From: Utricularia gibba | Taxonomy: Eukaryota; Streptophyta; Magnoliopsida; Lamiales; Lentibulariaceae | NCBI GenBank assembly: GCA_002189035.1 | Contig: CM007989.1 | Span: 3,658,001 to 3,722,000 of the forward strand | DNA length: 64,000 bases | Direction of reading: 5' to 3' | Shown: positions 21,794 to 54,148 of the stretch, one piece after another | Layout of the letters: the number at the start of each line of letters is the position of its first letter | How positions within the stretch are numbered: the stretch's first letter is position 1 | Position numbers and translations under genes: made by a program | Notes under the pieces: generated by a model | Told to the model about the DNA's origin: nothing | Seen by the model: the letters and a program-made list of their open reading frames with translations, nothing else | Database searches by the model: none

Positions 21794-24128
21794 GTACAGC
21801 GTAATGATGTCCGCGGTAGCTCGCTGCTGCCGGCGGCCGGGAAAAGGTGTGCGGTGCTGTATCACTATCCGTGCCCCGACGGCGCGTTCGCGCACTTGCG
21901 GCGCATCTATATTTCTCCAGTTTGCGGAGCTCCGCGGCACCACCTCCGATGTTCATTCCGAACACTGTATATTCTCCCCTGAGGTCCCCCTTCTTCCCAT
22001 ACTTGAAAACTGCACAAATCTGCTTCCTTTTTCTTTGCTCGTCCGTGATTTACGGTGCTTTTTTGTGTTTGCAGAACTGAGGATTTACCGCTCGACCAAC
22101 TCGGCAGCGTTTACCTCCTGGATTTCGTGGGCCCTCCTGGGTTCATCCAGCAGCTGTCCCCTAAAGTTGGAAGGCAATTAATTATTGATGTTCCCCAATT
22201 ATTCTGCTCTTAAAGATTATTGGTTGGCTTCATTAATGGTTGTTGATATTGAGACCGATTCCGAAAATGAGAGTTGTTTTGGTGAATTGTGAAATTTATG
22301 GACCCAAACAATGGAAACCTTGTTGTGAAAGATGCCCGGTGTCAGTTTTCTTGATTTGGGATTCACTGATGGTTTGTTTAGACTAATCCTGGGGGTTTAT
22401 GCGAGACTTTATTTGGATTCCCACCAGCTTAAGGAAAGAGAACACCGTGACACGTGTTTTAGTGGAAAGATCATACTTTTTTCTTTACATCCTTTTGTTT
22501 GTTATTAAAGTCAAGGTACTGGACCTAAATCTGATAGGGGAATGGTGTATTTTTATAATAAGCTTATGGCTTCCTTCCCCCTGCATGTGTATCTTATCGT
22601 TTTTTTCTCGATTGGATCGCAGGGTTGTGGTCCTTGATCATCACAAAACTGCACTAGAAATGTTGGGATCAGGGATAGAAAGTAGTGGCAATATTACCAA
22701 AGTTATAGATATGGGGAGGAGTGGAGCCACCATCGCTTTTGACTATTTCAAGCGCAAACTCCTTGGTGGGAATTTGAACGGTGATAAAAATGTTGCCTTT
22801 GAGGAATTTCAAAGAGTACGGAGGCTTTTTGAATATATTGAGGATGCAGATTTGTGGAGGTGGAAACTTCCTAATAGCAAGGCATTCAGCTTGGGACTGA
22901 AGTATTTGAACATTGAATTTGATGTGACATCAAATCCATTCTTGTTCCAGCAGGTAACTCGTCGGTGAATCTCGGAGATACATGAAAATGCTATCGTTAG
23001 GAAATACTGCCCCTAGCACTGAAACATCAGATTTGGACTTCGTATGTTTTCCTGTTGAATAATGTATGACATTGCGTACGACTGAGTCTCAAAAGAATTG
23101 TCCCTTCATCATATGATGTGCAATCATCATCTTATGAGCCTGCATGTTAAGAAGGATTGGTCAGGGAAAAACTATATTCCATAGCCAGACAACATCAATC
23201 ATGCTCAGCGTATCATTAGTGGCTTGTAGTTAAAGTTGTATACTTTATAGAATGAGAATGCACCAATTTAGGTGAAGAAAATTCTCGATTTCACTGTGTT
23301 TGGTTTGGGAAATAAATGTTAGAATTTTGGTTATAAACAAGGAGCAATTCCTTTTTGTAAATTCTTACAGAAGCTCCTGTCTTGCATAGGAAAAGAACTT
23401 CAATGAATTTATTACATATGTGGAAAACCCTGCTAGTATGCTGTAAACAACCTGTATTGTTTTTTTTCTTCAGCTGCTCTCGCTTGACATCGAAACAGTC
23501 ATAAGCCAGGGCATGTCAAGCTTTGATCGCTATCACAGAATCATCAGTGAAGCTCTTGAGACATCCTATGCGATTAGTCTTGGTGGTGGAGTTTTTGGTC
23601 ATTGCCTGGTAAACTATTGATGACAAAAAATCATGTTTTCTTGTACATCTCAGGCAGTTGAGTTGCATTTCATGATCTTCATTTTATTGTGGATTCAGGC
23701 TGTTGAAGTTGATGCTTCTGTCTCTGAGTTGAAAAGCGAGATTGGCAATCAGCTGGCCGCTAAGAGCCTCGAAAAGAACTTGAGGTTTTCACTTTTTATG
23801 TGTATCATCATGTTTACTTGTTTCCGGTTTTTAAACATAGTTTCAACGTCATTATAGAGGAATGGGAGCTGTTGTTTACCGAGTACCACAGCTTCAATGT
23901 GATGGAATGCTGAAAGTCAGCCTCAGGAGTTTAGGCACAGAGGATACCACCACCATATCTCAGGTACGTTCTGCTAATAAAATTTGTTGTGCCCATCTAC
24001 CATACCTCATTTGATGTTTAATGCAGAAATACGGAGGTGGGGGTCATCAGAAGGCTAGTTCATTCATGATAAATGATGAAGAGTTTCAGAAGTGGAAGGT
24101 CTGCACAAATGACTCGACCTTGATTTAA
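21794..24128 (+). CDS. DHHA1-domain protein (5' end unresolved, one frameshift)
   Basis: Relative of DHH-family phosphoesterases; the plant member's substrate is unknown to me. Exons: 21794-21983, 22075-22173, 22623-22953, 23474-23608, 23699-23784, 23858-23963 and 24027-24128. Motifs: AVLYHYPCPDGAFA (metal-site Asp), VYLLDFVGPPGF, VVVLDHHKTA (the DHH box) and a C-terminal DHHA1 segment ending KYGGGGHQKASSF, which should bind substrate. In the first exon the frame changes between DGAFA and LAAHLYF at 21892/21893; one extra G would join them as homologues have it. No in-frame ATG precedes the first exon, which begins at an acceptor (TTTGCAG), so an upstream coding exon is needed. The intron after 22173 uses a GC donor. 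Confidence 0.8.
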
Positions 24129-24608
24129 GATGCAGTCTGGCTCTATCCTTATTTTTGTGTCTGTATTTCATTATTGCTGGTTGATGATAGTTAATTTTTC
24201 AATAAAGAGATTCATTCGCTCAGAGCCATGGACCCCCACCCACAAAGTCGCATGGCAGAAGAACTGCAGTTGTTCCTGATCTGATCTCATGTTTAGTGGG
24301 GGCTGGGGCCTCATGTTGAGGACAAGAAAAGTGATTAGTCTGTGTCCTGTTGCGCCTTTTGGAAATGATCTCAATTTATGTGATAGATTCCAAAGAACAA
24401 ACAGGAATTCCCAAAAGAGAAGGCTCCAATAGTGAAGGGCTTATTACAATGATCCAAACATCACAAAGACATTCCATGGTGAGGGTAAAAACCAAATCTT
24501 TTATAGAGTAGCATCGTAAACTGGCTGCATCAGCCAAAAGTAATAGAACAGAAAGGGAAAGAAAAAAAGATAAAGAAAGCTAAGTACAGTTGAGAATTCC
24601 TTGTGCTT
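24129..24608. other. Convergent 3' spacer
   Basis: Holds the 3' UTRs of the DHHA1 gene and of the NAC gene. No coding sequence recognised. Confidence 0.5.
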
Positions 24609-26561
24609 TTAGTTTATGAAATTCAGCTGAGAGACCTCTTCACCACACCAGACATCATCTGTGATGAACTGCATCCATGATTCATCTTTGTTCTCGTCTC
24701 TATCTTCTTCCTCTATGTTGCATATCGTGGATGATGATGCTAAGGGAAAGTCTGGAGACTGCGTCTCATGCTCTGTTGGGTACATTGGCCCTTGCATGTA
24801 GTCAAGAAACGACAGGTCCCTGGACAGCCCTTGCTCTTCTACTTCTGAGATCAAAACATTTTTCTTGAAAACGCGGCACAATGCATATGAATCCTGCAAG
24901 ACGAATTTTATACATGCAACGTCACATTAACTTCAGTGCTTCAGACAAATGATATCCATATCAACATATGTAAAACCAAAAACAAGGTTCTGTGATGTTG
25001 GCTTGTGGGGAGGGCTGCGGGAGAATAAAGTGAAAAGTTGGCCGACAGGGCACCTTCTTACAAAAACGAAAGTGGGGTAATGTAACTTTTGGAAATAAAC
25101 AAAAATAATTTCCTTATAAAGAGAGCATGATTCCTACAAGATCAGGGGAATATGATGAGCACAAAAGCAAAAGGACGCAACGTGTTGATGATTGGGCGGG
25201 GATGCATGATAAGATCAGGTGTAGCCTTACGAAAGAATTGCACTTTTGTCTCAACCCCCTCCCTACCCCCCCTGAAAGACAAAGTGACACCAAACCATGT
25301 CACTCAAGAGATCTGTGTGTGATGCCTCTGCAAGAAAAGAATCACATAAAACTCATATTTGCTGTTTCCTATGTCTATATTCGTAGACATATTCAAGAAA
25401 AAATTGTGAAAGTTCTTACAACATTTAAATGTGTAATCTCAGTGATCATGCACGAATGAGCAATGCCATGCAGATCATGATGAAAATAAAAATTCCTGCA
25501 GATGATGACAAGAATAAAGTACACAGGGACAGACATGTGGGCTTGTGGTTTTGAGGCAGGAAGACACGACTGCACATGGATAAAAGCTAAGGCATGATGT
25601 TCTTTTGTATCTGCACTTCTATGAAAGTGAAAAGAGGTAGAAAAAATAGAGAAACAAATGCTTTTTTTCTCACTGTGAATCAGGGGCTGGAAATCAGTGC
25701 TTTTAAGGTCAAATGGTGACATTGTAAGAGTTATCATAACCATGGAGAAACATAAAGCGGAGGGAAAGGAAGAGGTGAAGATAACAATTTCTATGACGAA
25801 GACGCAAGGTTTCTGAGTTTCATGTTTTTCATGGACTCCTTTTATTTGTTTGAAATTGCTTTACCATAGTGGTGGTTAAACCATACGAGCTACCTGGATT
25901 CCAGAGGCCTCTTCCATGTCCTTATCGTCAAGACGATACTCGTGCATCACCCAATCAGTCCTTATTCCCTGTGGTGCTCTTCCTCTATAATAAACAAGAG
26001 TTTTCTTCATGCCAACAGACCTGTTTTGGCTAGTCACTCTCCTGTCCTTCCCTGTAGATTTCCAATATCCTGCTCGAGTGGCACGGTTCGTACGGAACCC
26101 ATTTGGGTACTTCCGGTCTCTAGGCCCAAAAAAGTACCACTCCGGATCTCTACTAGGCAAGAAAGATTTCTCTTCAAGAAAAAAGTACATAAGAATCAGT
26201 TGATGAATTGCCTTGACACTGAAAACAAACCTTAGCTAGCATGTCGAATGCACATATCCAGCAATGAATTTTCTAGTTTTTCTCTATCCAACGTTGCTTA
26301 TATCATCCCTAACATGCATAATATACATTCCATTACATCATAACAGCATAAGACTGGTATGTTTTTTCATGGAAGCAAGAGGAAAAAAAATTTCTTCTAC
26401 TCACCAGCTAAATCCCAAGGCTCACATTTGTAAAGATCAACTTCAGGTATAATATCAAGCTCAATTTCTAGTCCATGGATTTTCCTTTTGAGATAGTAGT
26501 TCACCAGCTCTTCATCAGTGGGGTGGAACCTGAAACCGGGAGGTAGTCCGACTGGAGCCAT
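24609..26561 (-). CDS. NAC-domain transcription factor (NAC020/045/086-like)
   Basis: Plant DNA-binding regulator. Three exons (26561-26405, 26171-25894, 24893-24609) give 239 residues. The NAC domain fills about residues 1-150: [20 protein letters not shown] (A), [15 protein letters not shown] (C), [20 protein letters not shown] (D start), STGKDRRV and [23 protein letters not shown], with [11 protein letters not shown] at its end. The sequence is closest in my memory to the group with NAC020, NAC045 and NAC086, which act in phloem sieve-element development. The C-terminal activation region is only about 80 residues, acidic, and ends VSQLNFIN. There is no membrane anchor. The second intron is about 1 kb. 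The ATG matches the conserved family start. Confidence 0.93.
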
Positions 26562-27174
26562 GATCACGAGCAACGTCTGCTGTGCAGCATCTCAACTACT
26601 AAGAACAGAAGAAAGAAAACCAGACCAGTTTTGAGCCATTGATCCGAAGGTGTACTTATACCAAGGGATCCCCTTGAGACCATTTAAACTTTTTTTCTTT
26701 TTTAGATTCTGAGAAGCGTTTCCTGAAAGCCCCTTGTCTCAATACGAATGAAAAAAGGAAAATGAGATCACAATTCCATAAACTTGCAGATAATTAGTCT
26801 TCACTGTTTATCAGCTTCAATAGAACTCTACTTTCACATGATGACACTCAGTGTTTGCTTTATTGACTTTCACCAATCAAACTCAAAAGACATTAACAGT
26901 GGCAAGAATTTACAAAGACCATTCTTAAGCATTGTTGTTGCATTTGAAAAATAAACTGCAGTAAGTGAGCTGGCTCCATCTAAATAGTCCACTTTCCACG
27001 CCACTCACATTGAAAAATCGCATTGTGATTACAATACAACATTACATTAAAGACTTTCATAGAAAGTCACGCATGCTATTGCTGCCCTCATTTATTACAT
27101 TTTAAAAGCATAACACGTCCTTGTGGTTTTCCATTTACTACATACATTGTATTAATATGTAAACAGAAGAAAGG
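26562..27174. other. NAC promoter and CNGC 3' region
   Basis: No coding sequence recognised; it should hold the NAC 5' leader and promoter and the channel gene's 3' UTR. Confidence 0.5.
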
Positions 27175-30100
27175 CTACCAACTTGATAACATCCTACGGT
27201 TCAATCGTTTCCTCCAGTACCTCCACCCAACTTGGATCCTTATGGCTGCTTGCGATCGATAGTATGGTGATTGGTACCTTCAACAAAAAAAAATTATAAC
27301 TTGTATTGGATCTAGTCTTTAGAGCAATTATTTGTTCCAAATTCCTATTGTTGACATGAGGAGTGCACCTTATAGCGCTTTGGACTCGAGGGCTACTCAA
27401 GAATCTGGAAAAGAGGCTGGTGATTTCTTCAAGATCTGGACATCGGAGGACAAACGCTTCCACATTCGTGAGGCATCTCAAAATCCTATTGCTAAGCAGG
27501 ATTCGAGGTCTCTTCCAATCTGGGAGACAAGCATTCATTTATGTTAACTTCATTGATGGTGGATCGATTACCTACGAGGGAAGGAAGAAAGAGTGGGACT
27601 TGCGAGTGTACCTCCTCTTAAAGATGAATTCTCAAGGCACCAAGTGAGGAGTTCTTCTCCACAGACATCGCCTTCTGTCAACGGAACAACGATCTGATCC
27701 TCTCCGATGCTCTCCATCTGGCCACGGATGATGAACACCATTTTGTCAATGATGCCACCTTGGAAGAATATCTTGCCTCCTTTGATAAATGTTCTTGTCC
27801 GTAGTCGTTCACATATGGCGTCTATGATCACATCGTCCAGCAGTTGGAAGATCCTGACCTGCCACCAAGAGAAACGAATTCTAGACTGCACTTATGGATA
27901 AAGTTTCAAGTTTCCTTTTTGGAATGACTAACTCTCTTCACATATTTGAAGAGATGGCGTCGAATGTCTCGCTGAAGGTCTTCAGGCAGATTCTCCATCA
28001 ACCCTTCTTCATCTACTCCACGAGTCGCCGCCCAGTAAAAGCGTTCTGCATCTCGAACTTGCCTGCACGACGTGGCATCTAATTGAAGTTAGTGTCACAT
28101 GGAAGAGGAACTGAAACGTCTTAGAAAGGGACCTGCGGAGATCTTCCGGCAAGCGACGGTGTCTCATCCACTGCTCGACATCACGATGTCTTAAGGACAT
28201 TTCTAATCTCCTGATAAGAAACAACTGAAACTGTTCGGATTTTCTAGAGATGAAAAGCTACGACACACCACTCGTAGTTTTCATACCTGCGGCCAAGAGA
28301 TTGGAGAAAGTTCTGCATGTTACCGATGAGCAGAGCAAAGAGCAAGAGCCCGATTCCAATGATCAACATGGTAAAAAGCACTTCCCAGACGAAGGAACTC
28401 GGAGCTTGATTCCCAGCAAGTGTACTGATTTGCTAGCAAAACAGCAGGAGATGTAGAGTCTAAAAGAACACATGCAGAAACACGGCAGAAATACATACCT
28501 GGAAACCCCAGAACAGAGAGTATATGTATCTTGTGATGACACTTCGTTGGGTGGTTAATAGAATGCCATTTTGGTAAATCCCATAGGCGAAGGTCCCTCC
28601 TACTGGTACAAAACAAGCACTTGCATTGCTATTATTCACCCAGCTTCCCCAAGTCGCATCCTTTTTAAACCCCGGAACGCCACCATGCCCACAGTCAATG
28701 AATTGCATGCAGTTTGCAATGCCGGAGGTGTGGCATGCATCTCTAAGGCACTGGTTCACTCTCTGGGAGAAGGGAAAAGAAAAATAAGACAGAAATGCCT
28801 TAGAAATCAAAGTTATGACAAGGGAGCCAACCTGTACAGCGAAAAGGTACCAGCACGAGCCTATAACATGACCAGCAAGAACAAACATGAGAAGATTAAT
28901 GATAAAGTTTGACCATGCAGACTCAAATATGAAGCCAGTTGAAGACTGTCCAGCTAACAGAGGAAAAAATCTGTACAGCCTTGGAATATACTGTGCGAGG
29001 ATGGCTGTGCGGAGAAGATTTTTTGCATAATTTGCACCAGTATCGCCTATGGAGCGAGGTAAAATCAATAATATGATGATCTGGAGATTGCATCAAAGCA
29101 TCAATGGTTAAAGAAAATATCAAAAGTGTAGGATTGCAGCAGGGTAATACCTGGGGAAGAGGCAGAACAACAAAGAAGTCGAGGATAAAATATCCAGAGA
29201 GATACTTCTGAGCAATTTTTTTAGGGTCATCCACCAGAGCTCCTGCACCCACAACTTTAGACTCTGGCGCAACATAAGCTAACCTAAACTGCAAACAGAA
29301 CAAAATGGGATAACTTGTATGAACCTAACCTGCAGAAGTTGGAAACACACCACTAGAGGGCAGTTACCTGAAGTAGAATATTCAGAAAGTATATGAAGTC
29401 ATTCAAGGTTCGCCAGATTACGAGTGCTTTTGTAAGGGGCCAATCTAGAACTATGCACTTGTTAACCTTCAAGGGAGAATAGGCTACAAGAACTTAGAAT
29501 CTGGCACTAACTTCAGGAGGTAAAATGCCACTAACAAGATAAGCATACCTGATTCGTTAAGAGCAGGAAGAAGAATAAGGGTCAACGAATATGGCGAATA
29601 AACAGGACACAACTAAGAACTTGTTCCACCTCTGTATAATTTTTGCATGAGGATTCATAACACCAGGGATACAAGACCGCATGAAAAGGCACATTCTCCT
29701 TGCGCACCCCCCTCCATCTCCCTGTAACAGATTATGGTACTGCAGAAAAGTTGGAGACTTGAGATTAAAATAAAATCCACATGACGGCACTACATGGTGC
29801 ACAGAGCAACACGAAATCCACATACATTTGCAGCGAATATATTTAGAGCACTTGAACGGTGTAAGGAAGGCCGATCATGGTAAACTGTTGGACACAATGT
29901 ACAGTAAGGATCATTGCACATTCCTAGTTGCCCAGATCTGATAAGATTGTCACTCCTGACTTCATTAGTGTCCACTGGCCAGACTCTACCGCTCGCTCCT
30001 GTTTCTAGAGTCGCCTCTAAAGCATGTTGCTCCAAGGCTACAGAGTGTGGCTCAATGGAGACCTCATGATTATGGCCAGAATAAAGAGGGGCCGAAGCTT

Positions 30101-30236
30101 GTCCGCGACCTCTCAGTGGTCCAGTAGAGCCCTCTGAGTTGTTCTGCTCCGAAGCATCCATAGTGTTCGAACGTAGAGTCATTGAAGCACTTCTGAACCT
30201 AGGCGTATTTGAGTCCCCCCGATTAATTGGTCGCAT
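27175..30236 (-). CDS. Cyclic nucleotide-gated ion channel, CNGC20-like (one frameshift)
   Basis: Plasma-membrane cation (Ca2+) channel subunit; the CNGC19/20 group works in immunity. Twelve exons: 30236-29826, 29721-29549, 29466-29368, 29288-29151, 29080-28832, 28762-28499, 28432-28287, 28210-28133, 28062-27933, 27858-27612, 27519-27369 and 27277-27175. With one restored base they give 729 residues. The N-terminus has the group's Cys-rich block LGMCNDPYCTLCP. S1-S6 follow; the pore filter is AGNQ at about 450. Then come RHRDVEQWMRHRRLPEDL (C-linker), a cyclic-nucleotide domain with MVFIIRGQMESIGED and GEELLTWCLE, and a calmodulin-binding IQ motif AAIRIQVGWRYWRK at the end. Exon 2 contains a stop in S1; one extra T in CCTTA (about 29577) restores DPLFFFLLLTNQ. 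The ATG at 30236 is the likely start, but a short upstream exon is possible. Confidence 0.9.
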
Positions 30237-33200
30237 TCTTATGTATTTCCTCTGACTATGAAGCTTTCCTACACAATCTGTGAATGAGAAAGATACACAG
30301 GCGAGTGATACTCTGGTCAACGCAATATCTTGGCCAAGAATGCAATATGCACTGCTAAATAAGCATTCCCAGATTACTTCTGCTGATCTAAACCCAACAT
30401 CCACCACTTGTTGCGGAATTCAGTCCTTGAGGATTCACACATAAAAGCCGTAACATGCTTGAACGAAGCGTCAAAGTTCGGCCTTTTCTTCCTCTGAAGA
30501 TTAAAAAACAGGCTGCCGTACTAAATTCTACTGGAACTGTGATATGGTCAGGAAGCATCAAAGAAACCCATTATCTACCTATACAGAAGAAGAAGAAGAA
30601 AAGAAGGATACATACCTGAGAAGTTAACACAGCCGGAAAACGAAAAGGAGCAAATCAAGGTTGTCCCACTCCCACGGCCCCAGCTGAACAAGACCCGGCA
30701 ACTTGGACCAGATAAATTTATCAACGGAAAAGACGGGGTAAATGTAAGAAAGCACACAAGTTGGGAAAGCGCACTGGTGTGACTCTCCAAGCGCCTGCAC
30801 ATAGGCACACACACACACATACACGGACGGGTATCCGTGTTTTCTGGTTTGACCGGTGGCGGGGGTAGGGGCAGGGGAGCGATAGGTGTTGACTTTCTGA
30901 TCATTTTGGCTTCGGAACTGAACATCCGGCATTCATTGCTATTTGCTAGTGAATGTTTTTTACTTGCGTAATTGCGTAGTGGGACATATGAGCCCTTAGT
31001 CTACCAGAAGGAATACAATACGGGCTCCATATTGGGCCGGTTCATGTGGGCCCAACATAACAGCCATGCCATTATGGCACAGCACAGCACCACACAATCC
31101 ATATTTGGTAAGTATGCTTACCCATTTAAACGCATGTGTATTAAAAAATATATTTTAATAAATATATTCTTCAATATAAATGCGATTTTTTTAAAAAAAA
31201 TTCAATCATATATTAAATCTCTTATTTTATGTGAATTTTGTTAATCAAATACGGTTTAATCTTTTTAACATGTTTTTCTTCTATTTTTCCATAGTATACT
31301 AAAAAAAATAATATAAAATCATAGTCAATAAATAAACAACCATTATATTTAAATCTAAGGTTAAACTCATAATTCAATCCATAGAAATCGCAATTTTTTG
31401 GATTTGATTCAGTAAAATCATAAATCTAACCGTCGAATCAAAAAAAAATTGGTGATATCATAATTTTTTATAAAAAAAAATTGAAATTTAAAAATTGAAT
31501 CTAATTCAGTGTATTATAAAGATAGTTCAATTCAAAATATAAATGGTGCCTTTGACCCTTATCAATGTCCGTCTCCCCCGTACTACTAATGAGGCGTGAG
31601 CAAACCCAGATGAGATGGTACCAGTACAGGAATGGATGATATTTTATAAATCTATCCATTGTATCTTTCTTTCTCTCTCGCACAGTAAAATTATTTTTTT
31701 TCACATGGGATATTTACTTTTTTCACATACTAATTTCACATTGGGTATTTTTTTTTTTTTAAAAAAAAACCCAAGCTCTTGTCTGTTAGTAGGCTTCTTT
31801 TTTCAGTGACGTGGAGACTCACTTGTTAAAATTAAAGATTTAATGAGTAATATAAACATATATGAAATATAAATATATAAAAAATATGAATCATATTAAA
31901 AAAAATATTAAATTCAATCAATTACTAATAATATACAATCGCTTCTCTCTATAATAGTTGTTATGATGGTAAACCTAGTAGACTTAAGACTTGGACTGGA
32001 AACCAAGGAAGGCACCCTCTGAGTTTGTCCAGGTGAGATGGTGAATCCAAGAGGGTTGAATTCAGATTAGCAGTTGCTTGGTTTGAGGGTGGATTCTGGA
32101 GTCTGAAAGTTAGGTGGAACTGGCGACCTGTTTCCCCATCAATCTCCTGCATATCATCGCAATCAACTGAAGGTGAAGCATTAGCAGACCTGCCTGCCCC
32201 TTAGCCTCCAGCATTAGGTGGAAAACCAATATATTATATATACTAACACACAGTAACAGGAACAAAGGAGTGCCCACCCGGTAGGCCAACCGTCAAAAAC
32301 TCAAGGCTGCTTCCCCTAACTGACAAAAAATCTTCCTCCCCACCAAACGCTTACGCCTGCCTAATTAAACAATACCGATAGACATAGATAGGCAGTGTTA
32401 AAATTGAAGATTCGATGGATCGAATGAGTTGAAATTCTAAGTATTCAAGAAATATGGATTATATTAAAAAAAAATATATTATTGACAATTTATAATTTTT
32501 TATATATTTGAATATTTTATTTTCAAAATATCAATTTGAAAAGAGGATGGATGATCATTGTAGAATGTTCTTGGGTTAAAAAAAGAGAACTAAGTAGAGA
32601 GAGAATACTTGATCAACTGCGTGGTGAGGTGGTTGTCGCAGGTCAAAAAAGGAGTTGAAACAATCACCATACCAAGATGCGAGTTCAAACCTGAGGACTT
32701 GATCAAAAGCCAATATGTATTTGTGTGACACGTGTGTGCCGGAGAGCAGAACCCGTTTCTTCTGATGCCGTCTTCTTCAATTCCTGTGTGTTGTGTGGCA
32801 CCCTGACCCTTCAAACCCTTCCTGCTAAAGAAATCAGCTCCTGCTTATCCTCCTACTCCCAACGTACTACTTTACAAAACCCATGTAATAAGAAAGAGTT
32901 TCACACTGACTCCTGGGATGGTTTCATTACCGGGTTCCTGGTTCTTTCTTACACAGGCTTTGGCATGGTAACTGGTAAAGAGGAGTAGGTAATGTTGATG
33001 GGGTGTTGTTAAAAGGCGTGTGACTTACGGGATTTAGTTAAATGGTTGCATCATCAGTCAGTGTGCTGGTCTGTCTAAATCCGCCCCTAACGGAAAACAC
33101 TCGTTTATCTAACTTCTACTTGCCTCCACATCTTCTCCTTATATGTGGACCTCGTCTCCTATCCTTTCTACCTCTTTTTTTTATTTTCCACCCTGATGCT

Positions 33201-33296
33201 TTTTTTCTCTTCGTCTTCTTGTCTGGATCTTTAGGGTTTTTGGGGGATGATCATATACTGGGAGTAGTTGCTCTCACGTCTAGATTGGAAGGGGAG
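30237..33296. other. Long AT-rich spacer
   Basis: Starts with the CNGC leader (splice-like sites and an AAG repeat near 30588) and ends with the MYB leader. From 31100 to 32600 it is AT-rich and degenerate, with two diverged copies of one AT-rich segment. The reading frame 32152-31961 (-) is open for 63 codons but matches nothing I know. No gene supported. Confidence 0.5.
31823..32480 (+). repeat. Diverged pair of AT-rich segments
   Basis: About 31823-31910 and 32395-32480 share tgttaaaatt-aagatt at their left and aaatatg-at-atattaaaaaaaa at their right. The middles differ in length and sequence. They may be remnants of a small non-autonomous element; no clear terminal inverted repeats or target duplications were seen. 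Confidence 0.35.
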
Positions 33297-35056: not shown

Positions 35057-38000
35057 TTAGGATGATATGGGTTCATACGGGTATTGCAACCAGGGGTGCT
35101 TCAGCGCCTCCGCAGCCGACGGCCGCTTCTTCGGGTTCACTTCCAGAAGGTGGGCGACAAAATCCACGAAGCCCTGATCGCCCATCGGCAGCCGGTGCTT
35201 CAGGGACGACTTCTTGGGTATCAGATACTCCAGTCTATTAGAGTCCTGGATGCAGAGCGTTACAGAAAAGATCAGGCAGGCGCAAACATTAACCTCTCCA
35301 TTCAAACTGCAACAAGGAGTTAAGGGAGTCACCTGGTTTCTTTCGTAAAGCATGTGGTTTTTGGTGAAATATTTGTACGTATCTTTTCCTCTCCTCAGGA
35401 TCTCTGGTTCGATTGGCCCAATAATCCCGATTACTCTGGCAAGCAGAGTGGCAGGGGAGTCATTTTGGAATAGCACCTGCAGTGATGAGGGAAGAGAAGA
35501 ACCAACCATGGTCAGATGATATTGGGACTGGGGAGAGATGCAAACTAGCACAACTTACGTTGCCTGTACAGAGTTCTGCCAGGATGCAACCAAGAGACCA
35601 AATGTCAATCTTTTTATCGTATGGAAGTCCTAAAATGACTTCCGGTGCCCGATACGATCTAGATTGAACATATGAACAAAGATGGTCTGTCTCAAAGCAA
35701 CTACTTCCGAGATCAATGACTTTCACCTCGCATCTACTGTAACTTTTCACTAGTATATTCTCTGGTTTAAGGTCACAATGGATGAGGCCAAGGCCGTGAA
35801 GGAATTGAAGAGCTTCCAAGCACTGAATTGTGATTGACTGCACAACGATGACCCTATTAAAAGCAGAACTCACGATGCAGAAAAGTGACTGCCATAATGG
35901 AAACGAACCTGTAACCTTGGCATTGTGAAGTAGACCTCTCCACCAGATTCTCGGTTAAATTTATGGAACTCGTACAGGTTTGCTTTAAGCAATTCACATA
36001 CAATCAATAGATGTTCCTGCATACAAAACAATCATGCTTGTCAGCAGGATCACATGGCATACACGTCAAGATCAGAGAATTATGGTGCTTAGGATCACTT
36101 ACTCGATAATAGAAGTAATCATATAACCGAAGAATGTGATGCTTGTCACCAGGATCATGCTTGTTTACATATTTTAAAAGCTTTATTTCGTCAAGGCTCT
36201 GGTCAAAAAAATCCTTGTTGTTCTTTATTACTTTCACACAGACATCCATGCCAGTGTGCAAATCATGCGCCTGAATAGCCTTACTGAATGCGGCTGACCC
36301 CAGATATTCAGTGACATGATAGCGCCCAGCGATGACAGAGTTCAAAACAACATGAAAATTCTTGTCCTCCTCAAATCCAGTCCTGAAGAAAGTTCACGGA
36401 TTAAATTCACTGGACCTGAAACTTGATGTTTGAATCACATGGAATAACAGCCCCTACAGTTTCAGAGGGGGAAGCACTTTGACTAAAGAATAAGAAGCAA
36501 AAATGGTCACAGCATCCAGCGTAAAAACACGGACTTCAACGAAGTAGCTGAACAAAATAGTCCATACCTGTTTTTCCTGTGTACAATCTTCAAATAAAAG
36601 GTCTCAAACTCTTCCTCTTGTGCTCGTATTTGCTTCACTTGCTCTTGCACAACAGCAGCTTCTTCATCTTCCAAAGATGCTGCAGAATCGCCAATTCTTA
36701 AAACTGCTCCCTTTGAATCATCTTCCCTTGCATGTTTTTTCTCACAATGATTTGAGCAAGAAGAAGGGCTAGAAACAGCAAATTCCCCTGCATTATCAAG
36801 TTTTTCAGCCCTATGGCTTTTGGTTGGAAATGATTCACTGCTTTTATGCCTCCATGAACCAGGCATATCTTCATTAGCTATACCATCTTCATCATTTTCA
36901 TCAATGGCAGCGGCATTACCCCTTATTGACAACAAAGGTTTGCTTGAGCTTTCAGGAAGCAACCCCTCATGTCTAGCATGGGGAATGAGAACCCACCATC
37001 CATATGCCTTTTTGCAAGGGAATACGCATATTGATTTTCTGCATTATGTCTAATAGTTGAATTTGTCTCGTTTTTTGAGTTATCACTGACAGACTTATCC
37101 AACTCATCCTGTCGACATCCATATGTAGCAACGCCAACATCACGATCCAAGTAATACTCTAAATCACCTTCATGACTTCCTCCAACCAAACTTTCATGTG
37201 CTTCACTGCCTATATCAGCAACATCGCTGTTGATTCCTACCCCGATTGACCTGACTGAACCATGTTGATCATCATCAAGGTAGACATCCCCAGGGTGCAG
37301 CCGCTCGCATTCATTGACAACACTTCCTTTACCAAGAATAACGAGTTCATTTGTCTGGGTGACGAAGCCTTGCCATACAGGTTCTGCTTGCATCAAAATC
37401 AGTTCCTCCGGATCCATCAAATGACCATCATAATTGCTTAACTCACTTTTGTTGTTCCTTCTACACAACTGAGTTTTGGACATGCCAACAGGATCATCTG
37501 ACTGGACAACAGAATCAATATTTTTGGACTGGAAAGACTGCTCCCCAGAGATGTATGAATCTTCTTCAGCGAATGACTGATCATCTTCATCATTTTTACT
37601 CTGCCTCCTTTCTTGAGGGTTCGGAATATCTCTGTGCCCTGTCTCTTTTTCATTCTCACTGGGTAATCAATTTCATGAGCCAGAAACCAGGTCTCGTCTT
37701 CAATAGGCTGTCTCATATAACCAACATCATCTTCATCTTCATATTCATCCGAGTCCCAATATTCATTATAGTAGTCAATTTTCTCACTGACTCCATTGCC
37801 CATATTTGCAAAACCAGAAACAAGACCAGATGCATCCTCAGCAATGCTGTGACTTATAGAAAGCCATCTACCTCCTCCGAGCATTTTTCCTGAGCCATCA
37901 TTGATAAAAACAAGAAAAGTGGCATAAAAATAAGAAAGAGCTTTTCATAAAAAGAATTACTTTATTGCAGATACAAGCTAAAATATACAACTCGCATCAA

Positions 38001-39407
38001 CATAAACTTCTTAAAGCTTAACAAGTGAAAGGACCACATCATCAAATGGGCACTCCATCATTCATATGAACCATAGCATCAGAGAAAAACCTATACTAGA
38101 CCTTAAAAGTTAATAGCCTCAATGCTAGTCTTAATTCAATAGCTTCTTTTTTTAAAATATTAAGATAACATTATACTTGAAATCATAGAGTCCTTGGTTT
38201 CAAAACTGATTTTAGGCAAACCTGAGGTGTTGATTTCTTGGCCAACAGGCATATCCAAGAATGACCCGACATGAAGAGCATTTTCCCCATTCGCTATCTT
38301 AGGAACCGGTCCTTCCTGGTCATGTTTCTCATCCCAATGAATATTGAAAGGTTTCTCTTCAGACTTGAGCTTCACTGGTGGAAGTCTTGGGAGCTCTTCC
38401 CGTTGACTCTCAGACACACGAAAATCCTTTAGCTCATTGCTCTGGGTCTTCCCAAAAAAAAGGGCTCTTCCAACCTCATCCATTTGCTCCTTTATGGCTG
38501 CTCGAATCCCATCAAGCTCTGGTTTCCCTTTTCCATCATTTTTATCAACAAGAGGAGGCACGCCATTGAAACTGGTTGAGGTGTCTTCCTTGGAGAAGGG
38601 AAAAACGGTTTTCACTGAACATCCTTTCATTAGGTCTTGTGAATTCGCATGGACATCAATTCTGGAGCATGAATTCCCAATAATGTCATCTTTCACGCAC
38701 ATGTTATTTGGCTTCACCAACTTGTCAGCTAACTTGCATTCAAGTGTATCATACAATCGTCCAGAAATTGGATTACTAGTATTTCCAGGCCAAGAGAGTC
38801 TCCTTTCACTGAGAAAACTCGAACTCTCAAGTGGATTTTTACGCACATTGGCACTACCCAAGTTTTTATATGAATTTGGCCTGGCCTTCCCAGACACCTG
38901 GGGTTCCAAATTATCATCATGATCCAGTGCAACTTGACCATTCATCATCCCATAGTCCCATGGATACAAATCCAATTCATCATCATCAGAACTCCTGGAG
39001 AATGTAAAGTTCTTATCACTAGTGCCAACACTTGCATTGACCTTATTATGCTCACCTACTGTGCTATAGACCATCCACTTGTTCTCCAAACCATTTTTTC
39101 CAGTAGCGCAGTCAACTTCCTTCACAATTAGCTCCTTGGGTGCCTCCACACCACCTGATGCCGCTGAATCCTTTGGATTTTTCACAGTATGCCTAGCGCT
39201 GTTGTTTGAATCTTCTTCCACAACAGTGGCACCATCTGTGTTGTTTGATATGATCCCTGACTCCTGATCTGAAATAATTAGCTTTTTTAGGAATCCATTC
39301 GACGCTGATCTGTTATCCAGTTCACCTCTCAGTGCAGCCTCGGCTTCAGTGAATTTGTTGTTTCTGAGGAACTCCAGCACAACATCCACGGGATTTGAAT
39401 CAGCCAT
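35057..39407 (-). CDS. Plant-specific DYRK-type protein kinase (two frameshifts)
   Basis: Serine/threonine kinase of the plant DYRK group that includes At1g73460 as I remember it; its substrates are not settled. Seven exons: 39407-38222, 37889-36568, 36382-36103, 36016-35909, 35837-35559, 35476-35333 and 35245-35057. With two restored bases they give 1,169 residues. The N-terminus has a LisH-like helix ([18 protein letters not shown]). A long acidic region follows ([16 protein letters not shown]). The kinase domain covers about 850-1,165: [12 protein letters not shown] (Gly loop), [12 protein letters not shown] (ATP Lys), [10 protein letters not shown] (catalytic loop), VIDLGSSCF (DLG) and [16 protein letters not shown], whose Tyr is the DYRK autophosphorylation site. 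Exon 2 changes frame at about 37662 (CCC, expected CCCC) and 36964 (GGGG, expected GGGGG, gene strand). The catalytic domain is intact. Confidence 0.9.
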
Positions 39408-40654: not shown

Positions 40655-41982
40655 ATGGGGTCTCTCTCCAACCAATCAGCTAATGCCGGTGAAGTGAAGG
40701 GATCACCGGAGGGGAACGTGGATCCTACCCGTTTGCTCGATCTCTTCAGATGCCAGCAGAAGTACATCAATCATTTCTTCCAGAATCTTGATCTCTCCCA
40801 GACGCTGATCTTCGCGCAAACGCTCTTAAATGCTAAAGGTACCGTTTTTTTCTCCGGCGTTGGGAAATCCGGCTTTGTGGCACAGAAAATTTCGCAGACA
40901 CTCGTCTCCCTCGGAATCAAATCTGCGTTTTTATCCCCGTTGACGCACTTCATGGAGACATCGGCATTTTGACGGCCATGGATTTGTTGGTTCTTTTCAG
41001 TAAGAGCGGCAATACAGAGGAGCTTTTGAGACTTGTTCCCTGTGCTAAGGCGAAGGGAGTCTATTTGATTTCTGTGACTTCTGTGAAGCCTAATGGTTTG
41101 ACGGGTGTTTGTGATCTGAATGTGCATTTGCCGCTGGAACGTGAGCTTTGTCCTTTCGATCTTGCGCCAGTGACATCGACGGCGATTCAGATGGTTTTTG
41201 GGGACACGGTGGCGATTGCACTTATGGAGGCGAGGAACTTGAGCAAAGAAGAGTATGCTGCTAACCATCCTGCTGGGAGGATTGGAAAAAGTTTGATATT
41301 CAAGGTGGGGGTTCTTTCCTTTTATAGCATTCCGCTTGATTTGCATTTGGTTGGAGATTTTCTTGAAGAAACATTGATCATAAATGTCACCATTACTGTA
41401 TTCGGTGTTACCATGATTCCTTTAAACGTCATTCCTGAGTAAGAGCTTGTGTTAAGAAAAAGGCAATTGCAGAAAAGATTGCGACATGCAGTTCTTTGCA
41501 TTTGGTTTCTGTGAAGTCCTCTTATGAATCTAATCAACAGGTAAAGGATCTTATGAAGAAAAGAGAAGAGCTCCCCATCTGCGGGGAACATGATCTGATC
41601 ATGGATCAGCTGGTGGAGCTGTCAAGCAAGGGCTTTGGCTGTCTTCTTGTAGTAGACGATGACTATCACTTGTTGGGCACTTTCACCGACGGAGATCTAC
41701 GGCGAACATTGAAAGCGAGCGGTGAGGCAATCTTCAAGCTGAAAGTTGGAGAGATGTGCAACAGGTACACAAATCAAAGCGCAATAGTCATCACTGATAC
41801 CCAGCTAATATGGAATCGATTTCAGGAACCCGAGAACCATACACCCTGAGGCAATGGCAGTTGACGCAATGCAGAAGATGGAGTCTCCACCATCAGCTGT
41901 GCAGTTTTTGCCAGTCGTCAGTGGGGACAATGCAGTGATTGGTATCGTTACATTGCACGGCTTGGTCTCTGCTGGCCTCTAG
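40655..41982 (+). CDS. SETH3: D-arabinose 5-phosphate isomerase, SETH3-like (one frameshift)
   Basis: Interconverts ribulose-5-phosphate and arabinose-5-phosphate, the precursor of Kdo, which in plants goes into rhamnogalacturonan II of the wall. Three exons (40655-41304, 41541-41764, 41826-41982) give 343 residues once a base is restored. The N-terminal SIS domain has [35 protein letters not shown] and [22 protein letters not shown]. Two CBS domains follow ([13 protein letters not shown]..., [14 protein letters not shown], and [11 protein letters not shown]...[14 protein letters not shown]). In exon 1 the frame breaks in TTATCCCCGTTGAC (40935-40938). A fifth C gives [15 protein letters not shown], the family sequence; as written the protein stops after 105 residues. 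The [11 protein letters not shown] fits the family length. Confidence 0.9.
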
Positions 41983-42458
41983 TTTTCCATCGTAAAACTA
42001 CATCCTTCTGTTATTCTTGGTATTCTTTCATACTTCCAAAAAGAAGAAAACTTTGAATCCAGAAGTACTTGTCAATGGCCTGCCTTTCTTAGCATGTGTA
42101 TGTACTGCAGTTTGCTATGTTCACTTTCATTTGAGAAAAGTCTGTTTTTAACATGTTAATTAATCATACCCAGTTGTAGCCATGAAGGTCAGTGGTCGTC
42201 CTCACAAGAGTTTCTTCCATGGCATTTGTCGTGTCGCCTCCATATAAACTAGGGTTCTTGGTCGTCGAGGTCAATTTGGAGATAAAATATATCTTAAAAA
42301 TGTAATCTTGAAATCTCTATATAATCCAAAATGTAATCTTGAGATCTGTATGTAATGACTTGACTATCTATTTTAAAAATCATTGTCTGAAAGATCAGCT
42401 GATTGACGGAAAACTGCTAAAATTTGTTATCAGGATGAAATAGAAGCAACAGAATTTT
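41983..42458. other. Spacer between isomerase and YaaW-like gene
   Basis: Isomerase 3' UTR, then AT-rich sequence with a short internal duplication (tgtaatcttgaaatctctat and a near-copy about 30 bases on). No gene seen. Confidence 0.45.
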
Positions 42459-46790: not shown

Positions 46791-47838
46791 ATGCTGTGGT
46801 CATTTTCAAACAAGAGCTCTGGTCCTCAGTTCTTATCTTTCAATGGCTCTCAAACTGAAAGGGCTATGATCCATTTTGATTCTCTCCCGTCATCTCGATT
46901 CGATATCGATGAATCCGATAGCAACAATTATCCTGCATCACAGGTAGCCTATGAGACTGACTTTCTTTTTGGAAGGATCTTTGTTTAGCTAATAGCTAAT
47001 AGCATTTTTCTTGATTATCTCTATTGTTTGTCGAACTCAGATAGCTTCGATTCTCGAGAGACGAGGGGGTCTTCCATGTTCAGCCACAACCTCACTTCCC
47101 ATTCACCGTTCCCTGCGTCTTGGTCAGAATCCGCTCATTTCTTCAACTCCACAGCACCATGCCGGAGTTCCGGCAATGACTTCTGTTTGTCTTAAAAGCC
47201 CTTTTGTCGCAACAACAGATGTAAGGTATGATATTAGCGTTTCTTGTGGGCTAGTCTTTTTACTGTCGGCAGAATGCGCTCGATTTCTGTTTCATAGAAC
47301 AAACATAGACGGGTTTGGGGTTTATCTTTATTTGGGTTTAGAAATTTAACAACAAGCAGCTTAAAGCATTCGAAACCCGCTTTCTGTTCTTCCCAGGAGT
47401 GACTCTAAGATCTCAGCAGCTCCCTCCGGCCAGCTAACGATCTTTTACAATGGCTCTGTGTCGGTCTACGACAACATTAGTCCTGAAAAGGTGGTTCCCC
47501 CCCGAATCCAACATGCTTCTCAGATGGGTTGCGTACACTCTCTGATGGTGTTGTTGTGGTTGCAGGCTCAGGCGATCATGTTACTTGCCGGGAACGAAGC
47601 TCCTGCAGCGGCTCCCCTCACTGCCCCTGAACCGGTGACATCCCGATTGACGTTGGCTCAGCCTCGCTGTTCACATCTCGAATCCAACAGCCATGACTCC
47701 GGTGCTACCAAACGCTATGAAGTTCTTGATGAGTGCCGCCTGATGCATTCCAAGGGAGTTTTTGTTGTTCCCACAAGACAGTTTTCAGGGGCCGTTTCGC
47801 AATGCCGCGGGTTTATTGAAAAACGCCGGAAGATATAA
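46791..47838 (+). CDS. TIFY/JAZ protein, TIFY6B/JAZ3-like, degenerate Jas motif
   Basis: JAZ proteins repress jasmonate-response MYC factors until COI1 removes them. Four exons (46791-46943, 47041-47225, 47397-47490, 47566-47838) give 234 residues. The start region WSFSNKSSGPQFLSFNGSQ resembles the JAZ3/TIFY6B block WSFSNKVSALPQFLSF. The TIFY (ZIM) domain is intact: QLTIFYNGSVSVYDNISPEKAQAIMLLAGN in two exons; it should bind NINJA and other JAZ proteins. The C-terminal Jas motif, normally like SLARFLEKRKER followed by a PY tail, is reduced to SQCRGFIEKRRKI and then a stop. So MYC/COI1 contact may be weak. The ATG at 46791 is the first in frame after an acceptor; homologues have a further upstream exon, not found here. 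Confidence 0.8.
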
Positions 47839-48331
47839 CGAGAATAACGATGATGTGAGTAGTGATGGATCAGAAAGCTGTTTCGTTGTTTAGGATGGAT
47901 GATGAAGATGGCTGAGTTGGTTGTAGCGGCAAGAGATGACCAACAATTCTTTCTTCATAATCTGGACCAATAATTCTTTCTTCATGCGAAAATAACACAT
48001 CAAATCGGGGAATTTTCCGATGCACCTGAACATGGCCCGGTTACCATACATTGATGGGCCTAGAATACAATGCAACCCATTCTAAAAGTGGACCCTTGGA
48101 GCCACATTTGTTGGTTTTCGCTCAACTCATTGCCTTCTTCGTGGGCCGTGGCTGCTCCAAGACGAGTTCAATCGTGGCGCGATTCAGCAAGTTTCAGTCT
48201 CTGATTTCATTTCAGTGAAAAGATGGCAACGGTTGGTTGCTACGTTCCGGGAGAGGATAACATTTGGGCATAAAGTTAAGCAATGGGTGCCGTCGCTTTT
48301 CCTTGTGAAGCTGAAGGAATTACCATCAGCG
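47839..48331. other. Spacer between JAZ and CBBY genes
   Basis: JAZ 3' UTR, then the CBBY promoter and leader. The CBBY frame is open upstream of 48332 to about 48215, but that part does not look like a transit peptide. Confidence 0.45.
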
Positions 48332-49876
48332 ATGGCAGCAAACGCCATCTCTCCTCCACTCACAGCGTCCCCAAAGAGCTTCCTCACCGATCAGACACAT
48401 TGGTCGCCGTCGCTTTCCTCCTCCGTGCGTCTCGGAGGCTTACGATATTCCCATCTGCCCATCAAGACAAGAGCTTTGAATCGAAGGGGTGGGTTCAGGG
48501 GAACGAAGCGCATCGTTTCCGCTTCGCTGTCGGCTCTCCCCGAAGCCCTTTTGTTCGATTGCGATGGGGTTCTGGTGGACACCGAGAAAGATGGCCATCG
48601 CGTATCGTTCAACGATACCTTTGATGAGGTACTCACTTCTGCCCCCTTTCTATGTTTGAGCTGAAGGCTGGTGCTGATTGAACTTCACATTCTGAAACGC
48701 AGAAAGAATTGGGAGTTACATGGGATGTGGACTTGTATGGAGAGTTGCTGAAAATTGGGGGAGGAAAAGAGAGGTAATTAATGAGCATTGAAGGTGAATG
48801 CTACCTCAGTTGGCCTGTTTTCACTCTGCTTACTGTAATGTGGATCCAACATAACATACTTTGGATCAGGATGACTGCTTACTTCAACAAAGTCGGCTGG
48901 CCGGAAAAGGCGCCGAGGAGCGAAGAGGAAAGAAGGGAGTTCATAGCATCACTTCACAAGAGAAAGACACAGCTTTTCATGGTACTAATAGAGAAGAAGC
49001 TGCTGCCTCTTCGCCCTGGAGTCGCGAGGTAAGCCCCTACAGATCTTGATTCATTCAGCTTTTGTAGATAATTTGCTTGTTCGTTGTTCTCTGGCAGTAA
49101 TGTCTGTAGCCTTCAACAGATTAGTTGATCAGGCTCTGGCAAGTGGAGTTAGAGTTGCTGTCTGCAGTACTTCAAATGAGAAAGCAGTATGATAATCAGG
49201 CTCCTTTGTGTATAATGCTGCATGAGAATCTAACTCAGGCGAACCTTTTTTTTTTTGGCATGTTTCATAGGTCTCTGCTGTAGTGTCATTCTTGTTAGGA
49301 CCAGAACGAGCAGAGAAGATCCAAATATTTGCAGGAGATGTTGTTCCTCGTAAGAAACCGGATCCGGTAAGACTCTGATCCTACAAAGGACAGTTCTTGA
49401 TGTTAAATAAAGCATCAGAATCAAATGCAGAAACCTTATGTGTATCATACTTCACTGCAGGCCATTTATCTCCTAGCTGCAGAAACTCTCGGAGTTGATC
49501 CTTCCAGGTTTACTCTTCACTTGAAGAAGGCGAAAGCATCAAAACCGTGATCAATTCTAACATGGGGCTTCCTGTTTTACTGAACGCAGCTGTGTCGTAG
49601 TGGAAGACAGTGCCATCGGTCTTCAAGCTGCGAAAGCAGCAGGCATGAAGTGTATAGTTACAAAGAGTGGGTAAGTAGATCAAAGCTTAAACCAAACCAT
49701 CCAAACCCTGTTCTTGTTGTTCTTGACTCGTTCTGCATCTTCTCACTTTCAGGTACACCGGTGATGAAGATTTCGTGAATGCAGATGCAGTTTTCGATTG
49801 CATCGGTGACCCACCGGAGGAGCGCTTTGACCTATCCTTCTGTGGTATCCTTCTCCAGAAACAGTTTGTTAGTTGA
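48332..49876 (+). CDS. CBBY: CBBY-like HAD phosphatase, chloroplastic
   Basis: HAD-family phosphatase; the Arabidopsis homologue removes a phosphate from xylulose-1,5-bisphosphate, an inhibitory Rubisco by-product, in the stroma. Eight exons (48332-48628, 48703-48773, 48870-49028, 49120-49186, 49271-49366, 49461-49507, 49590-49670, 49753-49876) join to 313 residues. The first 70 residues, starting MAANAISPPLTASPK, form a plausible transit peptide. HAD motifs: LLFDCDGVLVDTEKDGHR (I, nucleophile and acid Asp), VAVCSTSNEKA (II), VVPRKKPDPAIY (III, Lys) and CVVVEDSAIGLQAAKAAGM (IV, metal Asp). It ends GILLQKQFVS like the family. No frameshift is seen. Confidence 0.93.
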
Positions 49877-52539
49877 TGACCAGCACTCACATTACACAAT
49901 CCATGAATCCAGTTACATACAACACCATCGAAGCAAATCTTACCATAAGAAGCATCCTCTTAAGTTGGCGAATTTAGCAGTGAAACAACAACGATCAATG
50001 AACTCCATGTGGATGATATACTAAGGTCTAACCCAATCCAACCGATTTGCCTTACACTGACGAGTTTTGAAATTTTGAACAACTTCCTCAGACTGTACAG
50101 GCCGAGTAATTTATCCACCCGGTCCAAGATCAACACCTGAACAACGCATGATCGCACACATTCAATCCCGACGGAATACTCAACTCCGACCGGAGTACCT
50201 ACGCGGAGTGATTTCGATTCGTTAAACCGGAGACGCCTGTCCTTCGAGCTCTCGAAGAATCGGCAGAAAACCTGCAAACGCACGTCGGCTGCAAAAGAAG
50301 AAAATTGGTATAACCGTTCCATAAATATTTTTATTAAAAAAATTAAATGCATTTTTCCTGTGAGTTTGGGCCTGGCCACAGACACTAGGTAGAAAAAGCC
50401 CAATTTAGTTTAAACGGCTCATTTCGGCCCGGCCCATTTAAATGAATCGTCTCTACAATCTACATCCCATCTCTGTGCTTGATCCCAGACAAATTGAAGT
50501 TGGCTTTTGTCTCTCTTGTGTTTTGTCTGAGAACAGAGTAATTCCATACAAAATGTGTTTTGTTTTCAAGATGTGGGGGGAGTGCGATGGATGACGGGTC
50601 AGATCACCATGTGCATATGGCCCACGCCAACCCAATCGACAAGCATCATGTGCTCAAATCGCCCCCTCAGGTCAATTCTGTACCTCACTTGTCCTTCAAT
50701 TCGTGAAAGCAATCAAACTCACAATGCAATGTGACCACCCTTCTGCAAGTGCACTTATCGGAAACTACACTCCCACAAGGCAAGGCGTCAGAAGAGAGAG
50801 CTGAGTTGAGAAATGGCCACATTGTGTTGTTCTTCCTGCTGCAGCAGCCCATGTAACTGGAGTGATCGTGCTCCAAACAGTGAAATGATTTTTTTGTAAT
50901 TAGGCAAGTTGGTGGAGAGGTTTCGGTGTCAGCATCCATCAAGAAAAGGAGGGTAGCAGACACCTAACATGCCTCCCTTTGAAAGGGTATCACCCAACCT
51001 CTTCACAACGTGCAGCCTACTACCTGCGTTTCTCTGGTGTGACTCGTGCTTGTCGTTGTTACATTGTGTCTGCTCGTCGTATCAGTGTTTTGTGCACATG
51101 GGGTTCATGTGCATTATAGCCATAGGTTTAGAGCATCATTGAGGAGATGTAATAAGGGGAATCGATGCATGTGTGAGAGTTTCTGACATGGAAATCCGCA
51201 GAAGCGGACAGGGGGAAATGGGAGGGGATAGCGGCGGCTACAAGATCCACATGCGTTTTTCTCTCTTCAACTTGTTAAATTGAATGGATTTGGATTGGGA
51301 TTGGGATTGGATTCCCACGCACACAGACTATCTATTTCCATATTACAGCACGCACGTGGTTGTTTGTCTTTCCCTGAACCAATCAAGGGGTTGGCTGCAG
51401 TCACTAACTGCTTTTGTGGGTCGAATGTCCCTCTCCTAGTAAACAACGAGTCCCCATTCAATCCCCTCCACGCAAGTAAACCAGATAACTCGCAGAAGAA
51501 AAAAATCACTTCCGCGATCGGATTCCATAGAAATGAACACTGAGATGATGGTAGCAGAGGCCGATCCATCGGAGCGTGGGGAGGGGAGGATATATGTCGG
51601 GGGAGGCAACGGAGATCCGCCACGTGGAAAGATATGACGCCGGAGTGATTGGCTAACCATCAGGGCGGGATTGGCGGTTCTTATTTATGCTCCGGAGTTG
51701 GACTTTTGTGACAGACAGTCCATGTGCGTGGGGGGGCTGTCCTTTCAATTTTTAACCGACGCATCGAACCGGAAAAGTCCAGAACATTAAAAACACCCCA
51801 ACTCTTCTAGACTGGGACTCGTCCCCTTCCTCGCCGCAAACTTCACCATTACAGAACATGTATGGCGATAGAATCCACAGGCCGAGGTAAAAATACAACT
51901 GGTTTTCTCTGCGCCCCAGATCACGGGGTTTAACTTCACAGCGCCGGAAGTACCTGAGCCACCCGCACCTCCGTCGGTGGAGGCAAAAGAATGTCATAAT
52001 TGAAACCGTTACCCGGTGGCAGTAAAAAAAAAGTCGACCCACGATGCTTAAAGTTTGAATTCGGTTGGAAGTAGGTAACCGTTTTACGTGGCATGAATGA
52101 TGGCGATTAAAAGAGCCATTTTTTTCTTCAGTCAAAAGACGATCGCCACTTGCAGGCGTCTCCGCCTCGGCCCACGTTACCGTCAAGGCGGATCCCGGTA
52201 ACAGTGTACAGATACGCAGTAAATGGCTGTGTAGTAAACTTCCAAGGTTTCGGCGGCAAATGGAGAAAAAGAGGAAGATGATGATGATGGGGATTCATCA
52301 AGTGTGGGGCATTCTCTTTCAACCGCAAAACCCACGCACAGTTGAGGAGTGGGCACTCTCGTCGTAGGGTATGAAGAAGAAAGTTAGCACAGAATCAGTG
52401 CGTGGGGCTACGCCCTGACTCCATCTCTTATTTTAACTCAATAATTTTTCTGTCTTTATAAATTGCGGCTTCGTCTTCTTTATTCCGCAGTCCCCGGTGT
52501 ACCCGCTCACCAGTTTCTCGTCTCCCTCCATTTTCTACT
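49877..52539. other. Long intergenic region
   Basis: No gene recognised. It should contain the CBBY 3' UTR and the pectate lyase promoter. A short GATTGG-like simple repeat lies at 51283-51311. Open frames such as 52186-51752 (-) have no conserved motifs. Confidence 0.5.
51283..51311 (+). repeat. Simple repeat, (ggattt/gggatt)n
   Basis: About five imperfect hexamer units of the form tggatt/gggatt. Confidence 0.7.
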
Positions 52540-54148
52540 ATGGGAGTTTGTGGGCAGTTACTGCTTCTTCTGGCTGTCTTCCTCACTGTTGCGGTCGCCG
52601 CCGAGGCTGCAACTGCTCGAGACCCTGAGGTCGTCGTTGAGGAGATCCACAGGAAGCTGAACGAGTCGAGGAGGAAACTCGGGTTTCTGTCTTGCAACAC
52701 CGGGAACCCGATCGACGACTGCTGGCGGTGCGATCCGAATTGGGAGAAGAATCGCCAGAAGCTAGCGGATTGCGCGATCGGGTTCGGGAAGGACGCCATC
52801 GGAGGCCGTGACGGGAAGATTTACGTCGTGACGGATTCGGGGAACGATGACCCGGTGAACCCGAAGCCGGGGACGCTCCGGTGGGGAGTCATCCAAGAAG
52901 AGCCGTTGTGGATCATCTTCGCTAGAGACATGGTGATTCAGCTGAAGGAGGAGTTGATCATGAACTCGTTCAAGACGATCGACGGCCGTGGCGCTAGCGT
53001 ACACATAGCCAACGGCCCATGCATCACTATACAGTACGTGACCAACATCATCATCCACGGCGTGCATATACACGACTGTAAGTCCGGCGGGAATGCAATG
53101 GTGCGGGACTCCACCAAGCACTACGGCTGGAGAACCATTTCCGACGGCGACGGCGTGTCCATCTTCGGCGGCAGCCACGTCTGGGTGGACCACTGCTCCC
53201 TCTCCAACTGCAACGACGGCTTGATCGACGCCATCCATGGCTCCACGGCGATCACCATTTCCAACAACTACATGACCCATCATGACAAGGTGATGCTTTT
53301 AGGCCACAGCGACACATACACTGAAGACAAGGGCATGCAGGTCACCATTGCCTTCAACCACTTTGGGGAAGGCCTGGTGCAGAGAATGCCAAGGTACCCT
53401 CTACCCATTATCATCGTCATCATCATCATCCATTCCTGACTGATCACGACGCTACTCGTCGGCGATGTTTCAGATGCAGGCATGGCTACTTCCATGTGGT
53501 GAACAACGACTACACGCACTGGGAGATGTATGCGATCGGAGGAAGCGCAGCGCCGACGATCAACAGCCAAGGCAACAGGTTTCTTGCTCCGGATGACAGA
53601 TTCAAGAAACAGGTGAGATGAGGTTAATTTGCTGAGTGGGGTAGTTGATTGGATTCCTTATGAGTAAATGAGGGTAGGCCATAGCCATAGGGCAGGTAGA
53701 GTAGAGGGATAAAGAGAGAAAACATTCCAGCACAAAAAGCACACAGTGTGAGACTATAGCAGATGTGGGTCAAAAAGGGGAATTGATGAAAGACCAGGGA
53801 CTAATTAGCAATAACGGGATGATGACTTCTTTTTTCAAAGCTCACATAAAACAGACCTGCCCTGCACGCCGGGGCAGCTAGGTACAGCATGTATTGGGTG
53901 CATTACACTGCGTCCTGGTTGAGTGCAGGTGACAAAGCATGAGGACGCCGCCGAGAGCGAGTGGAGAAACTGGAACTGGAGGACGGAAGGGACTTGATGC
54001 TGAACGGAGCCTTTTTCGTGACCTCAGGAGCCGGCGCGATCTCTAGCTACGCGAGGGCCTCTAGCTTGGGGGCGCGCCCTCCACTCTGGTGGCCTCCATA
54101 ACCTCCACCGCCGGCGCACTCAACTGTCGGAAGGGTGTCCGCTGCTAG
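52540..54148 (+). CDS. Pectate lyase (two frameshifts in last exon)
   Basis: Secreted, calcium-dependent enzyme that cleaves de-esterified homogalacturonan in the wall. Exons 52540-53393, 53474-53612 and 53929-54148 give 404 residues with two bases restored, the usual plant length. A hydrophobic signal peptide ([17 protein letters not shown]) is followed by [13 protein letters not shown]. The PL1 parallel-helix body has [57 protein letters not shown] (Ca-binding Asp residues), [14 protein letters not shown] and [14 protein letters not shown] (catalytic Arg region). The last exon starts [21 protein letters not shown] and then hits TGA. Adding G to GGG (53989-53991) and C to CCC (54077-54079) gives DLMLNGAFF... 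and the conserved end [10 protein letters not shown]. The enzymatic core is unaffected. Confidence 0.9.

Follow-up and report, generated by a model that had tools for sequence, protein, structure and literature searches.

Single-base losses in five genes of a Utricularia gibba window, very probably long-read consensus errors

Five genes with broken reading frames

The window, by which we mean the whole stretch of 64,000 nucleotides that was analysed (C1:3658001-3722000), sits far from either end of an 8.5 Mb contig in an assembly totalling 100,091,633 bases in 516 contigs. It probably originates from a PacBio-only assembly of Utricularia gibba, whose genome has been reviewed as a PacBio HGAP assembly with a contig N50 of 3.4 Mb (PMC5793159). 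Five genes lose their conserved frame at seven sites, and each break is present in the letters of the window when these are translated in three frames, with one frame change per site and an open conserved frame on either side. At seven of seven sites the frame jump corresponds to exactly one missing base; at none would a base have to be removed. A previous sequence-only reading had claimed seven one-base deletions in five genes, without exception deletions, and three-frame translation bears this out on both counts. Its further claim that nearly all of them fall in runs of identical bases stands for six of the seven breaks, which lie within or next to G/C runs three to four bases long, and fails for the one at 21892. 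Two other genes in the window served as controls: an NLR gene of 1337 amino acids (396-4406, reverse strand) is an intact open frame, and translation of an AGO1-like gene (around 15275-20005, reverse strand) found no frame break.

The first broken gene encodes a DHHA1-domain protein (21804-24128, forward strand). Three-frame translation places the loss of one base at position 21892, where the protein reads ‘PDGAFA’ and continues in another frame as ‘ALAAHLYFS’; the site is a single G between C's and lies outside the homeolog coverage. The first ATG of this gene is also out of frame with the start of the conserved domain (21804-21835, mismatch near 21830), possibly because of an eighth one-base loss or because a first exon lies upstream. 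A CNGC20-like ion channel gene (27600-30240, reverse strand) was delimited by translation, homeolog alignment and dN/dS and has one break. It falls at a GGG run (C on the coding strand; 29579-29581), where ‘FAIFVD’ is followed by ‘PLFFFLLLTNQ’, and both translation and a one-base gap against a paralogue on contig C416 indicate that the run is one base short. The same three approaches defined a DYRK-type kinase gene (35060-39406, reverse strand) with two breaks. For the first of these, near 36964, translation and alignment give an interval only (36963-36983, with a CCCC and a GGGG run inside it) and the exact base is uncertain, because the surrounding region is poorly conserved; the second is a GGG run (37661-37663) that translation and DNA alignment show to be one base short. 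Between homeologs dN/dS was 0.18-0.35 for the DYRK gene and 0.13-0.32 for the CNGC20-like gene, the latter range leaving out the nine codons just past the break, which are too few.

A SETH3-like arabinose-5-phosphate isomerase gene with a SIS domain (40655-41981, forward strand; exons 40655-41304, about 41541-41764 and about 41826-41981) breaks once, at a CCCC run (40935-40938). The protein reads ‘KSAFLS’ before the run and the conserved sequence resumes in another frame. The pectate lyase gene (52540-54148, forward strand; exons 52540-53393, 53474-53612 and 53929-54148) breaks twice in its third exon. At a GGG run (53989-53991), one base short by translation and by comparison with two paralogues on contigs C321 and C451, ‘WRTEG’ is followed by ‘DLMLNGAFF’; at a CCC run (54077-54079), one base short by translation and DNA alignment, ‘SLGAR’ is followed by ‘PSTLVASIT’. 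Splice sites of both genes read as intact. The coding length of the SETH3-like gene is 1031 nt, one base off a multiple of three, and that of the pectate lyase gene is 1213 nt (1214 nt if the base after the stop is included), two bases off. Exon lengths had been said to become multiples of three only after correction in four genes, which holds for these two, the ones that were recomputed.

Homeologs cover six of the seven sites. At four of these the window lacks a base, and DNA alignments with paralogues or homeologs from the same genome place a one-base gap in its copy at 29582, 37661, 53991 and 54078; one site is ambiguous, and the loss in the SETH3-like gene is common to both copies. Its homeolog (C321:1662800-1664700) lacks the same base, and the sequence downstream is under strong purifying selection, with dN/dS between the copies of 0.07-0.16 downstream of the break and 0.36 upstream. 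For the pectate lyase gene the comparison of homeologs gave dN/dS values of 0.14 for the first exon and of 0.05-0.31 for the segments of the third. A homeolog of this gene (C321:1671400-1673500) has one-base losses of its own, matching window positions 53235 and 54136.

Recurrence of the losses across the assembly

The same defect was seen in genes far from the window. In about 43 genes of the GRAS family, frameshift-aware alignment, together with DNA alignment to close paralogues, identified about 15 one-base losses, mostly in G/C runs, or roughly 1 per 3.3 kb over some 49 kb. No clear one-base gain was seen in the less-decayed GRAS genes in the middle of contigs. In several paralogues the missing base belongs to the stretch of C's coding for the GGPP motif. 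Six decayed or poorly aligned loci (L024, L034, L035, L038, L042 and L043) and one at the low-quality end of contig C414 (L033) were left out of these counts. A single long open frame was found at 26 GRAS loci, one of which (L024) later turned out to be in the wrong frame, the gene being broken. The apparent break of another (L031) is an intron.

The gene for PRP8, a core spliceosome protein and indispensable to a living plant, is one base short at three places within some 7 kb of coding sequence (C412:498001-511000), and essential genes are thus affected as well as dispensable ones. The assembly has a single match to the PROCN domain and we found one copy of the gene. Its junctions, each short in G/C, are GCCCC|AGACC, ATACCC|GT and CCATGG|AG; when the protein is joined over the first of them it aligns without gaps to PRP8 chains in the PDB. 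Homopolymer context and a bias towards loss characterize the window sites, apart from the context of 21892, and the three in PRP8, and GRAS genes likewise. Wherever a coding loss could be placed clearly, in about 17 cases (6 in the window, 3 in PRP8 and 8 in GRAS genes), the lost base is G or C. The density of frame breaks in the window, which we estimate at about 7 per roughly 20 kb of coding sequence, matches the rest of the genome. Other test sequences were discarded: U6 snRNA, tried as a non-coding control, has too few full-length copies, and the breaks seen in the second-largest RNA polymerase subunit fit introns. A plastid-type rpoB on contig C516 lies within an open frame of 1085 amino acids.

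Loci that were assembled twice differ mostly by small indels rather than by substitutions, as long-read errors would predict. Contigs C87 and C412 show 0 substitutions and 11 small indels in 6488 columns, and C177 and C451, compared over 9816 columns, differ by 3 substitutions and 13 indels. The same GRAS gene is intact on C422 and broken at the end of C414, with 0 substitutions in 1179 bp; over a longer stretch these two contigs differ by 17 gap openings and 10 mismatches. The end of C414 (3443900-3445070) is dense in small deletions relative to C422, as is expected of low read depth. It tells against this reading that, of the 24 indels in the first two pairs, only 6 leave the copy on the longer contig the shorter of the two. 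The redundant contigs are mostly short, and errors are likely to be denser there.

Natural alleles differ mostly by substitutions. One pair, C316 and C412, with 11 substitutions and 4 indels over 6.1 kb, does look like a true second haplotype, and one might suppose that the breaks are heterozygous or clone-specific variants, a minor or defective allele having entered the assembly. However, we found no further allele of any gene in the window in the assembly, the indel-only pairs are unlike usual alleles, and such variants would leave both the bias towards deletion of G or C and the losses in PRP8 unexplained. We therefore regard allelic variation as a hardly credible source of the breaks.

Origin of the frame breaks

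Utricularia gibba is a plant with recent genome duplications and heavy gene loss, and one or more of the seven losses could therefore be real. Extra copies that are being lost after duplication might carry such deletions as early inactivating mutations. Duplicated blocks of the window region are present at C321:1659906-1673176, C416:156449-175866 and C3:72415-75890, and their gene content is complementary, as such decay would have it: the SETH3-like gene, the pectate lyase gene and traces of the DHHA1-domain gene were retained on C321, the CNGC20-like and DYRK genes on C416. For several of the broken GRAS genes there is a close paralogue that is intact. A few GRAS copies show heavy decay, and three (L024, L034 and L042) look truly decayed. 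Against decay, the clean breaks in GRAS genes, PRP8 and the window are all one-base losses, whereas decay also predicts substitutions, stops and larger indels. In the window genes we saw no further stops when each side of a break was read in its own frame, and the splice sites of the SETH3-like and pectate lyase genes read as intact, unlike the additional lesions of a pseudogene. The frame is conserved on both sides and dN/dS is low (0.05-0.36 in the flanking segments that could be measured), with no sign of relaxed selection after a lesion. Decay is not a sensible explanation for PRP8, present in one copy found, since a living plant cannot be without it, and it does not account for contigs of the same locus that disagree with each other. 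Real gene decay thus appears very unlikely as the cause of the seven breaks.

Because contig pairs differ by indels alone, because the losses recur in other genes including PRP8, and because both sides of the breaks that could be measured show purifying selection, we favour assembly error over decay. From the sequence data at hand, the seven breaks are very probably errors of a long-read consensus that was polished insufficiently or never with accurate reads. What we infer in this reading is the platform used for sequencing, the identity of the species and whether it holds at each individual site. The consensus step would call runs of G or C one base too short, and this would happen genome-wide, at roughly one frame break per 3 kb of coding sequence; intact genes would thereby appear frame-shifted in the assembly. 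An uncorrected long-read consensus had already been proposed for the window, and the redundant contigs, the GRAS and PRP8 losses and the selection on both sides of the measured breaks all speak for it. The earlier wording is refined in two respects: the defect is genome-wide and not peculiar to the window, and the clear coding losses are of G or C.

A point that runs counter to assembly error is the loss shared by the two SETH3 homeologs, which could be an old, real deletion. The sequence downstream of it has remained conserved after the duplication, and for this reason the shared loss is best read as one run miscalled in both copies. That some of the losses, above all this shared one, are real and old, with slippage or frameshifting at short runs of G/C yielding the proteins, seems extremely unlikely. 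A broader form of the idea holds that the bases are truly absent throughout and that the frame is restored during expression by transcriptional slippage or programmed frameshifting. The low dN/dS downstream of the shared SETH3 loss would fit this, as would the GRAS paralogues that are short at the same GGPP-coding run. However, the indel-only differences between redundant contigs extend into non-coding DNA, for which a coding- or expression-level mechanism cannot account, and runs of two to four G or C are poor slippage sites. Hence restoration of the frame during expression has next to no probability in our view, and consensus error is the reading that we retain.

Known parallels and meaning for gene-loss studies

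Consensus error would here be an artefact of a well-known kind, unusual only in its density and its preference for G/C. Homopolymer and indel errors of long reads are known to fragment genes (PMC12007338, PMC7671305, PMC9262707), and the likeness extends to single-base deletions tied to short runs, their genome-wide spread and the pseudogene look of the affected, intact genes. In contrast to these errors, every clear coding case here is a G or C, and the runs often count just two to four bases; paralogues and redundant contigs, not reads, served to estimate the density. In Trypanosoma brucei, frame breaks in the reference reportedly vanish with an improved assembly (PMC8445201). The assembly in question was allele-specific and that of a diploid, whereas the window here is without a second assembled copy. 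In the literature other than the assembly's own paper we found no report of indel errors in this assembly.

If the density holds, a large share of the genes in this reference would carry a false frame break, and tallies of pseudogenes, lost genes and truncated proteins drawn from this assembly would have to be checked against accurate reads. U. gibba is studied for its gene loss and small genome, and the artefact is relevant to such counts. Redundant contigs, when compared, and essential genes present in a single copy offer a test that needs no reads, as was done here. A truncation of DCL3 in U. gibba has been published, backed by 5′ RACE (PMC8333044). A one-base error was considered as its cause and rejected, the locus on contig C213 having no helicase coding sequence in about 6.5 kb upstream. 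At this likely DCL3 locus (C213:2753200-2763199) the PAZ and RNase III parts are present, in agreement with the published truncation.
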